Source: Iocasia fonsfrigidae (GTDB lineage: Bacteria; Bacillota; Halanaerobiia; Halanaerobiales; DTU029). Taken from it: DNA of 64,000 nt. This document shows, one piece after another, positions 31,170 through 36,990 of this stretch (position 1 is the first letter of the stretch; every line of letters begins with the position of its first letter). The position numbers and the translations under genes are program-made. The stretch lies in the NCBI RefSeq assembly GCF_017751145.1, contig NZ_CP046640.1:2150137-2214136 (forward strand), given 5' to 3'. The notes beneath the pieces were generated by a model that did not search any database, was not told the origin of the DNA, and saw nothing but the letters and a program-made list of their open reading frames with translations.

Positions 31170-31763
31170 TTACAATCCCCTATATTCTATTAAAACTGGC
31201 TGTATTTGTTTATCTTCAAGGGCATATTCTGCCGCATCTTTTACTAAATCAAACCTGGCATTTAAAGAATTCTTTTTTTGTACTGGATTATCCTGACCAA
31301 ACGGTACAAAGAAGACATTTCTGGTATTTAGTAATATTCCAAGGTTTTTAGCGTTTAATCCAAGACCATCATTTGTTGCAATAGCCAGCAAAACAGGTCT
31401 TTCATTCCTGAGCTGGGCTTTTGCAGCCATAATTACTGTTTCGTCAATTATCCCATTAGCCAGTTTAGCCATGGTATTACCTGTACAGGGCGCAATAATT
31501 AAAAGGTCCAGCAGTTCTTCTGGCCCAATTGGTTCTGCCTTTACAATAGAGTTAATCAAAGGCTTTTCAGTTATATCAAGAACAGTATTAACCCATTTAC
31601 TAGCAGGACCAAACCTGGTATCACAATTTAAAATAGCATCTGATAATATAGGTGTTACTTCTGCACCATTTTCTATGAATTCTTCCAAAACTGGAATAAC
31701 TTTATCCAGGGTGCAGTGAGAACCGGTTAGTGCAAAACCAATTCTTTTACCATTAATCTCCAA
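31170..31763 (-). CDS. dpaB: Dipicolinate synthase subunit B
   Basis: DpaB is the flavoprotein-like subunit that, with DpaA, makes the spore solute dipicolinic acid in the mother cell. The FMN-binding fold is visible in RIGFALTGSHCTL and LIIAPCTGNTMAKLANGI. The start is TTG 31763 (MEINGKRIG), eight nt after GAGGAGG; the reading to 31820 is not supported. It follows dpaA with 46 bp between. Presence of both subunits implies that the organism can sporulate or descends from a spore former. Confidence 0.93.
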   Translation of the reverse strand: MEINGKRIGFALTGSHCTLDKVIPVLEEFIENGAEVTPILSDAILNCDTRFGPASKWVNTVLDITEKPLINSIVKAEPIGPEELLDLLIIAPCTGNTMAKLANGIIDETVIMAAKAQLRNERPVLLAIATNDGLGLNAKNLGILLNTRNVFFVPFGQDNPVQKKNSLNARFDLVKDAAEYALEDKQIQPVLIEYRGL

Positions 31764-31809
31764 CAAACACACCTCCTCTAAGCCTAATAACCAATTATAT
31801 ACCCTGCCT

Positions 31810-32667
31810 TTACAGGTCACTTAATAAACCAGGAAGAATATCTGCCAGGATTTTACCAGCAGTAACTGGTGCTATTTTGCCAGGAAGGCCGAGGGCAAGG
31901 ATGGCTTTGATACCTGCTTTTTCAGCTTCTGTAAAATCTGTGCCTCCAGGGGCTGATGCCAGATCAATAATTACAGAATCTTTCTTTAGTAAAGATATTA
32001 TCTCTTTACTTATTATCCGGACAGGTACTGTATTAAAAAGAATATTCGTATCAGAAATAATACCATTTAATTCTTCATAAGCAAACATCTTGATACCAAG
32101 GTCTTTCCCTCTTGCAGCAGCTTTTCTATCCCTTGTTACAGCATATGATTCAGCGCCAAGCATTCTTAACCGCCATGCCAGGGTAAGGCCGACTTTTCCA
32201 AGACCAAAAACAAGTGTTCTGCTATTATACAAAGTATAGTCCGTTTCTTCAATAGCTATTTTAATTGCACCCTCTGCAGTTGGGATGGCATTTAAAATTG
32301 CAAGGTCTGCCTGTCTGGCTAATTCAATATAATTTACACCAGCAAATTCAAGCTCTTTCTTAATAGATGGACGGGCTATTCCTATAATAAAGGGTTTTTG
32401 AGGACCTAATAAACTAAAAAAATTTCTATCTAATTTAATACTTCTATTATCAAATGTTGACTTGAGATACCCTTCATGATCTGTACTTGACATGGGAGCA
32501 AGTACGGCATCAACATCACTTATTACCTCTTTAAGATCATTAAAATATTTAACCGCTTTTGTATCTAAAGCGTTTTTTTTTAATACCTTAAATGTAAAGC
32601 CTTGTTGAGCAAGATTATCTATTAATACCTCTTCTCTTTTATCTCCACCAATTACACCTATTCTAAT
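31810..32667 (-). CDS. dpaA: Dipicolinate synthase subunit A, with ATT start
   Basis: DpaA is the NAD(P)-binding dehydrogenase-like subunit; LVFGLGKVGLTLAWRLRMLGA is the Rossmann motif. The first ATG in frame (32493) would remove a conserved N-terminus. The upstream frame encodes IRIGVIGGDKREEV, matching the family start (KIAVIGGDARQ in Bacillus). Between the stop before the Shine-Dalgarno and that ATG there is no ATG, GTG, TTG or CTG. The only codon at proper distance (7 nt) from GGGGG is ATT at 32667, with another ATT at 32670. With it the protein has 285 aa, the normal length. Confidence 0.92.
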   Translation of the reverse strand: MRIGVIGGDKREEVLIDNLAQQGFTFKVLKKNALDTKAVKYFNDLKEVISDVDAVLAPMSSTDHEGYLKSTFDNRSIKLDRNFFSLLGPQKPFIIGIARPSIKKELEFAGVNYIELARQADLAILNAIPTAEGAIKIAIEETDYTLYNSRTLVFGLGKVGLTLAWRLRMLGAESYAVTRDRKAAARGKDLGIKMFAYEELNGIISDTNILFNTVPVRIISKEIISLLKKDSVIIDLASAPGGTDFTEAEKAGIKAILALGLPGKIAPVTAGKILADILPGLLSDL

Positions 32668-32755
32668 AATTAATCCCCCTTCCTAAATCAATAAAACTTA
32701 AGGAATACAATATACTATATGAAATAAACCTAAACTAAGTGATAAATTATCTATA

Positions 32756-33553
32756 TTAATCTAAAACCTTTTCTAGACCATATACTAAACCCTTTATACC
32801 CATTACCTTATCTAAAGCAAGTTTTACCCCTGGCATAAATGACTTTCGATTATAAGAATCATGCCTGATAGTTAAACTCTGTCCTTCTGTGCCATAAATT
32901 ACTTCCTGATGAGCAATAAGTCCAGGCAAACGTACACTATGTATTTTAATACCATTGCTATCTCCACCACGGGCCCCGGGAAGTTTCTCTATTTCATCTA
33001 TATTATTTTGCTGATTGCTAATCCTGTTATAATTAATAAGTTCTGCTGTTTTAACTGCCGTTCCTGAAGGGGCATCAACTTTCTGATCATGATGTAATTC
33101 AATTATTTCAACATTATTTAAGTATTTAGCCGCTTCTGCTGCAAACCTCATCATTAAAACTGCCCCAATAGCAAAATTAGGAATTATTAAAGCTGCCACA
33201 TCATTGTCACAGGCTAATTTATCAATTCTTTGTAAATCAACTTCTGTTATACCGGTAGTTCCAACAATCATATTGATACCATTTGATAAACCTAGCTCAA
33301 TATTATCCATGACAACTGCTGGTGTTGTAAAATCTATAATAATATCTACTTCCCTTTTCTTTATACTGCTTAATAAATCTCCTTCAATTATTACTTCAGG
33401 TCCCGGAAGAGATAATAATTTCTTTATATCCTTACCTTCATTATTTTTATCACAAACACCTACTAATTCATCTGCTGTATCATTTACAATAGTCTTAACC
33501 ACTTCCTGTCCCATTCTACCACATGCACCATTTACCAGGACTCTTTTATTCAT
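32756..33553 (-). CDS. dapB: 4-hydroxy-tetrahydrodipicolinate reductase
   Basis: DapB reduces the DapA product with NAD(P)H. The Rossmann motif VNGACGRMGQEV opens the protein, and ELHHDQKVDAPSGTA holds the catalytic His-His and substrate motif. The start is ATG 33553, eight nt after AAAGGGG (265 aa). It precedes dpaA by about 90 bp and probably heads the dapB-dpaA-dpaB-dapG-dapA transcript. No lysine riboswitch is seen upstream. Confidence 0.96.
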   Translation of the reverse strand: MNKRVLVNGACGRMGQEVVKTIVNDTADELVGVCDKNNEGKDIKKLLSLPGPEVIIEGDLLSSIKKREVDIIIDFTTPAVVMDNIELGLSNGINMIVGTTGITEVDLQRIDKLACDNDVAALIIPNFAIGAVLMMRFAAEAAKYLNNVEIIELHHDQKVDAPSGTAVKTAELINYNRISNQQNNIDEIEKLPGARGGDSNGIKIHSVRLPGLIAHQEVIYGTEGQSLTIRHDSYNRKSFMPGVKLALDKVMGIKGLVYGLEKVLD

Positions 33554-33766
33554 TATTATTTCCCCTTTCATAAGATATATCTTTTACTGTATATACATTA
33601 TAACATTTTATTATCTCAAATCCACTTAAAATAGACTATGATTGATAATATTTTTATTCAACAAAATTAAATATCAAATATAATTAACATAAATTCCCCA
33701 TTATTTTCGTATAAAAGGACATTAAAAACATCAAACTAGAAAATAGAAAACCAAAAGGAGGTTACT

Positions 33767-35401
33767 ATGTCTGAAGAAAAAAAAGAAATAGCCTATTTTT
33801 GTATGGAATATGGACTTGATGAAAAATTACCACTGTATGCTGGTGGACTTGGCATACTGGCCGGTGATTATTTGAAAGCCGCCAGAGACTTAAATAGCCA
33901 AGTTGTAGGGATCGGAATCTTATGGTGGCAAGACTATACAACACAATTAATCAATCATGAAGGATATCCCTATGACACATACCCCACCCATAACTATAAT
34001 AATCTTGTAGAAGATACAGGATTATCTGTTTCAGTTGAGATTGCTGGAAATAGTGTTGAATGTAAAATTCATAAAGTTGAAAAACTTAATAATGCCCCTC
34101 TTTACCTACTTGAAACAGGAAGACCTGATAGTAAATATGGATGGATAACAGATAAACTATATGCAGGTGATAATTATAATCGAATAGCCCAGGAAATTGT
34201 TTTGGGGATTGGAGGTGTCAGGGCCTTACGAAAACTAGGCCTTAAAATAGACAAATATCACTTTAATGAAGGCCATGCCGCCTTTGCCGGTCTAGAACTA
34301 ATCAGGGAAAAAATACATAACGGCCAATCTTTTGAACAAGCACTTAAAGAAACCCAGGAAGAAATAGTCTTTACAACACATACACCAGTACAGGCAGGTA
34401 ATGAATCTCACGACCTGAACCTACTTATGGAAATAGGGGCAAATAATGGTCTTGGTTACGAACAATTAAAGCTCATCGGTGGTGAGCCATTTAACATGAC
34501 AGCATCCTGTCTCCATATGTCCAATATTGCAAATGGTGTATCACAATTACATGGCAAAACTGCCACAGATATGTGGGCACATCTAAACAATTCAGCCCCT
34601 ATCATTTCCATTACCAATGGCGTCCATCGTAAAACCTGGCAAGATAAAAATATCAATAAGGCATTCCCCAATAATAATGATATCTGGTCTGCCCACTATC
34701 AGAACAAGAAAAAACTAGTTGATTATATAGCCCAAAAAACAGATGCCCGAATGAATCCAGATAATCTGATAATTGGGTTTGCACGTCGTGCTGCACCATA
34801 TAAAAGAAGTGAACTAATATTCAGAGATACTGATGAGATTGATGACCTCTTACAAACCGGCAAAATTCAACTGGTTTTTTCTGGTAAAGCCCATCCAAAT
34901 GACCATTATGGCAAAGATATAGTAGCAACACTGGTCGCCATGGATAAAAAATATAGAGATAATGTGGCCTTTCTGGAAAATTATAATATGGAAATTTGCC
35001 GTTATCTAATTCAAGGAAGTGACGTCTGGCTGAACAACCCTAAAAGACCCATGGAGGCAAGTGGAACATCAGGAATGAAAGCTGCCATGAATGGAGTGCT
35101 TAATCTAAGTGTTCTGGACGGTTGGGTAGCCGAAGGACCTGAACATGGTATCAACGGCTGGATACTTGATGAAGAATTCCCCAACCTAGATGAAAAGTTA
35201 TCTGAAGATGAAAAAGATTTATTAGCCCTCTATAATATTTTAAGGAATGACATTATACCAATCTATTATGATGATAGAGATAGATGGGTCAGAATGATGA
35301 AAGAAAGTATTGCCATGTCACAGGATAGATTCTCTGCCCAAAGAATGCTTAAAGATTATAGTCAAAAAATGTATAAAAAGGCCGAACCTGCCCTGGTTTA
35401 A
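33767..35401 (+). CDS. Alpha-glucan phosphorylase (GT35, short form)
   Basis: It phosphorolyses alpha-1,4-glucans such as glycogen or maltodextrin to glucose-1-phosphate, using pyridoxal phosphate. The PLP lysine lies in EASGTSGMKAAMNG (about residue 437), and YAGGLGILAGDYLK is the N-terminal glucan-phosphorylase signature. At 544 aa it is the short GlgP/MalP type lacking the N-terminal extension of 800-aa enzymes. It has a clear AAAAGGAGG site. Its stop overlaps that of the converging EamA relic. Confidence 0.93.
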   Translation: MSEEKKEIAYFCMEYGLDEKLPLYAGGLGILAGDYLKAARDLNSQVVGIGILWWQDYTTQLINHEGYPYDTYPTHNYNNLVEDTGLSVSVEIAGNSVECKIHKVEKLNNAPLYLLETGRPDSKYGWITDKLYAGDNYNRIAQEIVLGIGGVRALRKLGLKIDKYHFNEGHAAFAGLELIREKIHNGQSFEQALKETQEEIVFTTHTPVQAGNESHDLNLLMEIGANNGLGYEQLKLIGGEPFNMTASCLHMSNIANGVSQLHGKTATDMWAHLNNSAPIISITNGVHRKTWQDKNINKAFPNNNDIWSAHYQNKKKLVDYIAQKTDARMNPDNLIIGFARRAAPYKRSELIFRDTDEIDDLLQTGKIQLVFSGKAHPNDHYGKDIVATLVAMDKKYRDNVAFLENYNMEICRYLIQGSDVWLNNPKRPMEASGTSGMKAAMNGVLNLSVLDGWVAEGPEHGINGWILDEEFPNLDEKLSEDEKDLLALYNILRNDIIPIYYDDRDRWVRMMKESIAMSQDRFSAQRMLKDYSQKMYKKAEPALV

Positions 35402-35823
35402 ATGGGCAGTTCTTCGGCTCCCTTTTTCATTTTGCCAAAATAATTTGTTCCAAAAATACCAGTAATAATTAAACAGGCACCAAACGCCTGATACCAGTAA
35501 AATGACTCACCCCTAAAAACAACCCCGGCCAGTATTGAAATTACTGTTGTTAAATTGGCAAAAACCGCCGAACGAGCTGCTTCTAATCTTGATAATGTAT
35601 AATTCATCATAAAGTAAGCCAACACCGAAGAAAATGCCCCTAAATAAAAAACAACAACAAAAAGAGGCCATTCCCTAACAGGTCTTATTATTTGATATAA
35701 ACTGTAATTATATTTTAAAATCATAAGTAATGTAAAGAATATAGCACCTGTCCACATCATTATAAATGTTATCTCAACAGGCTTAAATTGTAAAGAAAGG
35801 AAGCGCGATAAAATATCTTTCCA
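35398..35823 (-). pseudogene. C-terminal half of an EamA/DMT-family transporter
   Basis: The open frame runs from just after a TAA (35824-35826) and encodes WKDILSRFLSLQFKPVEITF, then MMWTGAIFF and four to five hydrophobic helices of the second EamA domain. A full transporter has about 300 aa and ten helices; here the N-terminal half is missing and no ribosome binding site precedes any start. The downstream part from ATG 35760 (120 aa) could still be translated but is unlikely to function. I read it as a decaying gene. Confidence 0.75.
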
Positions 35824-35841: not shown

Positions 35842-36990
35842 TTAATTTGCAGGGGGCCAGGGGCCGTAGTATTGATAATACTGACACTCTATACCCCCAT
35901 TATATAATTTTCTTCTCTTACTTGCCTTTTTACCAAATTCCTTCTCAAAATCATCATAAGAAGTCAAAATATAAAATGACCATGTATCAAGTCCCAGGAA
36001 TATTTTCCCCATCTCATTACATAATTTTCTAACCTCTTTTTTTTCATTTAAACGCTCCCCATAAGGGGGATTTGTAATAATATACCCATACTTTCTATTT
36101 GTACTAAATTCACTAAAAGGCTTCTGCTGAAAATGTATTATCTCAGCCAGACCTGCTTTATCTGCATGGTAACGAGCAATACCAGCAACATTTCCATCTA
36201 TATCTGTCCCCATAATCATCCGGGGATTGCATTTTTTCTTAACTAACTCCCCGGCTTCTTCACGGGCTCTCTGCCAGATTTGATCAGGAATTATCGGCCA
36301 CTCCTCAGCAGCAAACTCCCTCATTAAGCCAGGGGCCATATTTTTAGCCATCATGGCCGCTTCTATCACAATAGTACCCGAACCACAAAAGGGGTCTATT
36401 AATACTCTATCTTCATCCCAGCGACTTAATTTTATCATAGCAGCAGCCAGTGTTTCCTGCAAAGGGGCAGCAGTAGATAATTCTCTATAACCCCTTTTAT
36501 GGAGCCCTACACCACTACTATCAATTGTCAAGGTTACCCTATCTTTCATTAAAGCGACCTGAATAGGATATTCTGGTCCATCTTCAGGAAACCATTGCTT
36601 ATGATATTTCTCTTTCATATTATCAACAATGGCTTTTTTTACAATTGATTGGCAACTCGGCACACTATGAAGGGTGGACTTCACCGATTTCCCCGTAACA
36701 GGGAATTTAGCATTTTCGGGTAACCACTGGGACCAGGGTAATAACCTGGTCTTATCATATAACTCATCAAAATCAGTAGCATAGAATTCCCCTAACTTAA
36801 GTAAAACTCGCTCAGCACAGCGCAGCCAGATATTGGCCCGGGCAACAGCTGATAAATCACCTGTAAACTCAACCCGTCCATTTTCAACATTCGTTAATTG
36901 ATATCCAATTTCTTTAACTTCATCTTTAACTAATGACTCAAGCCCAAAGGTAGTAGTTGCAATTAAATTTACTTCTTCGCCTTTATACAA
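35842..36990 (-). CDS. THUMP-domain 23S rRNA-type N-methyltransferase (RlmL N-terminal/YpsC family)
   Basis: An N-terminal THUMP/ferredoxin-like RNA-binding region (about residues 1-155) precedes a SAM-dependent methyltransferase. The latter has DPFCGSGTIVIEAAMMA and the catalytic TNPPYGERL, typical of N2-guanine or N6-adenine methylation. It matches the YpsC/RlmL-N group acting on 23S rRNA. The start is TTG 36990 (MYKGEEVNLIATTTFGLE), seven nt after GAGG; the longer reading to 37095 is not supported. It has 382 aa. Confidence 0.9.
   Translation of the reverse strand: MYKGEEVNLIATTTFGLESLVKDEVKEIGYQLTNVENGRVEFTGDLSAVARANIWLRCAERVLLKLGEFYATDFDELYDKTRLLPWSQWLPENAKFPVTGKSVKSTLHSVPSCQSIVKKAIVDNMKEKYHKQWFPEDGPEYPIQVALMKDRVTLTIDSSGVGLHKRGYRELSTAAPLQETLAAAMIKLSRWDEDRVLIDPFCGSGTIVIEAAMMAKNMAPGLMREFAAEEWPIIPDQIWQRAREEAGELVKKKCNPRMIMGTDIDGNVAGIARYHADKAGLAEIIHFQQKPFSEFSTNRKYGYIITNPPYGERLNEKKEVRKLCNEMGKIFLGLDTWSFYILTSYDDFEKEFGKKASKRRKLYNGGIECQYYQYYGPWPPAN

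Follow-up and report, generated by a model that had tools for sequence, protein, structure and literature searches.

Translation of the dipicolinate synthase gene dpaA of Iocasia fonsfrigidae most likely begins at an AUU codon, and comparison with related genomes indicates that this non-AUG start is real, conserved and not an error. The gene lies on the minus strand of the 64,000-nucleotide stretch analysed here (the window), which is part of a complete chromosome of 3,926,493 bases, and it occupies positions 31810-32667. We consider it likely that dpaA is a functional, full-length gene starting at AUU, in which a weak, conserved start codon and a strong Shine-Dalgarno (SD) sequence together throttle the production of DpaA.

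The product of this frame is recognizable as subunit A of dipicolinate synthase (DpaA, also SpoVFA) along its whole length. As the sequence-only reading had claimed, this homology requires residues encoded before the first ATG. Read from 32670, the protein scores 319 bits against the curated DpaA model NF006162 (cut-off 261), its N-terminal domain PF16924 matches from residue 4 with 85.8 bits (cut-off 29.2), and its alignments to the solved DpaA structures (PDB 2rir and 3d4o) run from residue 2-4 nearly end to end; against TIGR02853 it scores 261, under that model's own cut-off of 319.65. The genomic context is likewise that of a dpaA gene in a sporulating lineage, with dpaB adjacent downstream, the DAP-pathway gene dapB upstream and sigK present. 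The further claim that ATG, GTG, TTG and CTG are all missing between the preceding in-frame TAG and the internal ATG was also borne out. Around the 5′ end the minus strand reads TAG GAA GGG GGA TTA, then the tandem codons ATT ATT, then AGA ATA GGT GTA ATT GGT GGA GAT, and the first in-frame ATG (32491-32493, codon 59 from the second ATT) encodes an internal conserved Met within an 'APM' motif. The 58 codons ahead of it encode the conserved DpaA N-terminus, including the invariant residues GGD-R-E. A gene caller limited to ATG, GTG and TTG would choose the ATG at 32493, which is the wrong start, and would trim these 58 codons, or half of the conserved N-terminal domain.

Between the two tandem codons, the second ATT (32665-32667), not the one at 32670, is the most likely start. 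It lies 7 nt past the SD sequence GGAAGGGGG (32675-32683) and aligns with the AUU, AUA or AUC codons that six relatives have at this distance from the SD, while the preceding ATT (32668-32670), a less likely alternative, lies 4 nt past the SD and has no counterpart in the relatives. The sequence-only reading had, by its end coordinate, implied the ATT at 32670-32668 as the start of dpaA and had named an SD seven nucleotides before an ATT; that spacing holds for the second ATT and fails for the first. Its central proposal of initiation at ATT is strongly supported by the comparison, with the exact codon shifted by one, and an initiation site at the second ATT is, on these comparative grounds, well supported. 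SD strength was calculated as the energy with which the leader pairs to the 16S tail GGATCACCTCCTTTCT, a sequence found in the genome. For dpaA of the window this energy is -14.8 kcal/mol, a value within the top 3.6% among 502 genes from this genome (median -9.3). Across the family's seven dpaA genes the values lie between -14.7 and -16.3 kcal/mol, which only 0.8-3.6% of these 502 genes equal or exceed, and which fall within the top 3.4-6.2% when the genes of G012, a member of another family of the order, serve as a second reference. The spacing between SD and start codon is 7-8 nt in all seven, so that each has the strong, properly spaced SD of genes starting at AUU, AUA or AUC (AUH).

The search for dpaA covered 38 genomes of the order Halanaerobiales, ten of which carry the gene. 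Whether orthologues in sister species also have ATT had been proposed as a check, and indeed the homologous codon is AUU, AUA or AUC in all six other dpaA genes of the window's family. Counting the window, the seven genes, from five genera, comprise four with AUU (G000, G003, G004 and G006), two with AUA (G005 and G007) and one with AUC (G001), and the relatives' proteins are 58-62% identical to that of the window. In five of the seven (the window and four relatives) the interval from the -10 box to the conserved N-terminus contains no in-frame ATG, GTG or TTG. The other two have canonical in-frame codons without an SD upstream of the dpaA SD (ATG and TTG in G005; TTG TTG in G006), from which a longer product could conceivably be made. 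Elsewhere in the order, the start is apparently CTG in two genomes of two other families (G010 and G012; loci L008 and L009), one codon further upstream and behind strong SDs, and it is TTG in one further genome (G017). In outgroups from the same class an ATG or TTG is found about 7-10 codons further upstream, and more distant dpaA genes carry ATG, GTG or TTG. Similarly, a canonical ATG, GTG or TTG is available near the DpaA N-terminus in 79 of 80 GTDB loci, the sole exception (L031) being a member of the window's family whose dpaA-site sequence in this second collection is the same as that of G004.

These comparisons show that the start moved inward and turned non-canonical within the order. 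Conservation of an amino acid does not account for the unanimous AUH in the family, because the homologous codon encodes Ile in only 3 of 18 outgroup dpaA genes. Among three congeners (G005, G006 and G007) dN/dS is 0.06-0.18 upstream of the site where the window has its first ATG and 0.13-0.19 in the rest of the gene, and the former stretch is therefore evidently translated. Synonymous sites between genera are near saturation, which leaves more than enough time for a third base free of constraint to have become G. This point bears on the main rival explanation, namely that the AUU start is an evolutionary relic: after loss of the ancestral start, initiation would have shifted inward onto a near-cognate codon, with the strong SD evolving as compensation. 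Such a history fits both the displaced starts of the outgroups and an SD that appears compensatory, and the SD may indeed merely compensate for a bad start and have no regulatory role. However, a single base change would turn AUA or AUU into AUG, yet AUG has not been regained in any of the seven genomes and five genera, nor in the two families with CUG, and we consider a relic unlikely, if the most serious competitor of a start that is retained as a throttle.

How unusual such a start is within the genome was addressed by a survey of start codons in 1.2 Mb of the window's genome against 1.2 Mb of G012. This yielded homologues for 651 non-shadow reading frames, of which 584 (about 590) reach the N-terminal region of the partner, and the 32 cases in which similarity begins at least 7 codons before the first possible ATG, GTG or TTG were read by eye. 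Among the roughly 590 comparable genes only dpaA and infC (AUC) have credible non-canonical starts. General laxity of start codons in the genome was thereby rejected; the remaining hits were fragments, frames that are antisense or lie in rRNA regions, or cases in which both genomes share a canonical start and resemble each other upstream of it by chance. The count is a lower bound, since non-canonical starts with a canonical in-frame codon upstream are missed. In the Halanaerobiales loci that were read (L111-L140), infC apparently starts at ATC, or in one case ATT, behind a GGAGGTG-like SD, which indicates that AUH initiation is already in use in the order. Gene callers limited to ATG, GTG and TTG would mis-start infC across the Halanaerobiales. 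For dpaA, a literature search at title and abstract level found no relevant report of a non-canonical start.

The comparison with G012 also brought out several incomplete genes. Within the window, positions 35398-35822 on the minus strand encode only the C-terminal half of a transporter, presumably of the EamA type, which adjoins a methyltransferase-like gene ending at 35842; in G012 the frame is intact and 313 residues long, and the alignment with it begins at its residue 174; this remnant is probably a decayed gene. Outside the window, two frames (C1:2022187-2023872 and C1:2426786-2427973) retain just the C-terminal portions of long proteins whose G012 counterparts are intact. The alignment begins at residue 165 of 710 for one of them and at residue 248 of 653 for the other, which sits just upstream of infC and resembles a threonyl-tRNA synthetase. 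The two may be either real splits or indel errors of the assembly.

Upstream of dpaA we find a putative sigma-K/E-like -10 element, CATATAGTA (32713-32721, minus strand), and, 17 nt before it, the CAC of a putative sigma-K-like -35 element (32739-32741). Both this CAC and the CATATA of the -10 element are invariant in nine aligned genomes. The resulting motif CAC-N17-CATATA, conserved in these nine about 40-50 nt upstream of dpaA, is one that we take to resemble sigma-K promoters, and within the order the ten genomes with dpaA are exactly those in which sigK scores above cut-off. Downstream on the same strand lies dpaB (spoVFB; 31170-31766), encoding dipicolinate synthase subunit B, which matches NF006161 with 309 bits from residue 21 of the long open reading frame and starts, after AGAGGAGGTG, at TTG (31766 or 31763). 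The mechanically called frame of dpaB opens with a GTG at 31820, which is too early, as both the similarity and the SD point to one of the two TTG codons. In all nine loci with a non-canonical dpaA start, dpaB itself starts with ATG or TTG, and dapB (32756-33571 in the window, minus strand; TIGR00036, 267 bits) is the upstream neighbour. Vegetative read-through from dapB was considered as a special reason for a weak dpaA start and rejected: outside the order, most dpaA genes with a canonical start also have dapB upstream, so that read-through does not single out the window's family. The dapB gene was not found upstream of dpaA in G017, whose start is TTG. Two other candidates, an RNA structure hiding the start and a conserved upstream peptide, were likewise rejected, since the leaders fold no more stably than shuffled sequences (z -0.7 to 1.2) and the frames and starts in them differ between species. 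A search for Rfam families in the dpaA leader found none.

How a throttle of this kind might operate can be outlined from these elements. The dpaA mRNA would probably arise from the sigma-K-like mother-cell promoter, whose closeness to the gene would leave little leader for another start to hide in. Codons of the AUU/AUA/AUC class pair with the initiator tRNA at two positions and are discriminated against by IF3. The strong, well-spaced SD would recruit the 30S subunit and so permit some initiation. As a net result, the yield of DpaA would be a fraction of that from AUG, with dpaB, next in the operon, having an ordinary ATG or TTG. What we observe is the position of the codon, its conservation, the strength of the SD, a promoter-like motif and an intact frame under constraint at the protein level; from these we infer initiation at AUU, a low yield, IF3 as its setter and selection for a low level. 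What the throttle is for is a guess; it might limit the drain on a lysine and cell-wall precursor or set the ratio of DpaA to DpaB.

Published parallels lend this reading some weight. The sequence-only reading had cited infC and pcnB as known chromosomal genes with such starts, a list that has since grown, sigR (GTC), ccpN (AUA) and cvfC1 (AUU) having been shown to belong on it. Work in vitro shows that IF3 excludes codons with a weak pair at the third base (PMC10158994). In Staphylococcus aureus, cvfC1 and ccpN are expressed at about 10% of the AUG level, ccpN at up to 30% in rich medium, and both share with dpaA a conserved AUH start and an extended, strong SD (cvfC1 in Staphylococcus, ccpN in Staphylococcus and Bacillus); they differ in that ccpN is a transcription repressor and cvfC1 a small protein, and in that their starts were proven by ribosome profiling, whereas that of dpaA is placed by sequence comparison (PMC13009471). 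The Streptomyces gene sigR likewise combines a conserved non-canonical start, held down by IF3, with a very extensive ribosome-binding site, and is the first of a gene pair whose partner has its own site, but its codon is GTC, its product is a regulator and not an enzyme, and its dependence on IF3 was shown genetically (PMC5472188). The E. coli gene pcnB, as summarized in PMC13009471 from Binns and Masters 2002, is an enzyme gene in which an AUU start limits translation, although poly(A) polymerase is unrelated to DpaA in gene and lineage. The gene for IF3 itself, infC (AUU, AUC or AUA), pairs an AUH start with a good SD and is present, at AUC or AUU, in the same genomes as dpaA; IF3 regulates its own level, whereas dpaA encodes a sporulation enzyme without a link to initiation and has a stronger SD than infC. 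Finally, dpaA (spoVFA) of Bacillus and other Firmicutes belongs to the same protein family and has the same partner, dpaB, yet unlike the window's dpaA has a canonical start available in 79 of the 80 GTDB loci. In the literature, throttled starts are marked by this pairing of an AUH codon with an exceptional SD, and the analogy makes a low yield of DpaA probable. With infC at AUC or AUU in the same genomes, it is also plausible, as the sequence-only reading had suggested, that IF3 limits dpaA translation. A stronger version, in which the start acts as a developmental switch, strikes us as improbable: IF3 activity, or the ratio of IF3 to ribosomes, would drop in the late mother cell, and DpaA would be translated only during spore maturation and stay silent in growth even if read-through from dapB transcribed dpaA.

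Other explanations fare worse than a throttled AUU start. AUU, AUA and AUC all encode Ile, and the codon could be an internal one, with translation beginning at another non-standard start upstream or entering by a frameshift from a small upstream frame; short ATG reading frames do exist in the leaders of G003 and G004. We judge this very doubtful, as the window has an in-frame TAG five codons upstream, the upstream frames differ by species and lack an SD, the residue is not constrained in the outgroups, and the codon falls 7-8 nt past an SD every time. That dpaA is a pseudogene, or yields a shortened protein beginning with the ATG at 32493, is scarcely credible: the Met at this position is conserved, but the short form would have lost the N-terminal domain's first half along with the invariant GGD-R-E, purifying selection spans the N-terminus, and the frame is intact in all genomes compared. 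A sequencing error masking a true ATG, for which one might point to the split genes in this genome, can be dismissed, as ATG is absent at this codon in six other genomes and the second collection agrees for one of them.

Few chromosomal genes are known to hold a start of the AUU class by selection. If dpaA is indeed one of them, a gene for a spore-biosynthesis enzyme would be doing so in five genera, and IF3-sensitive initiation would reach beyond regulators into the metabolism of a developmental process.
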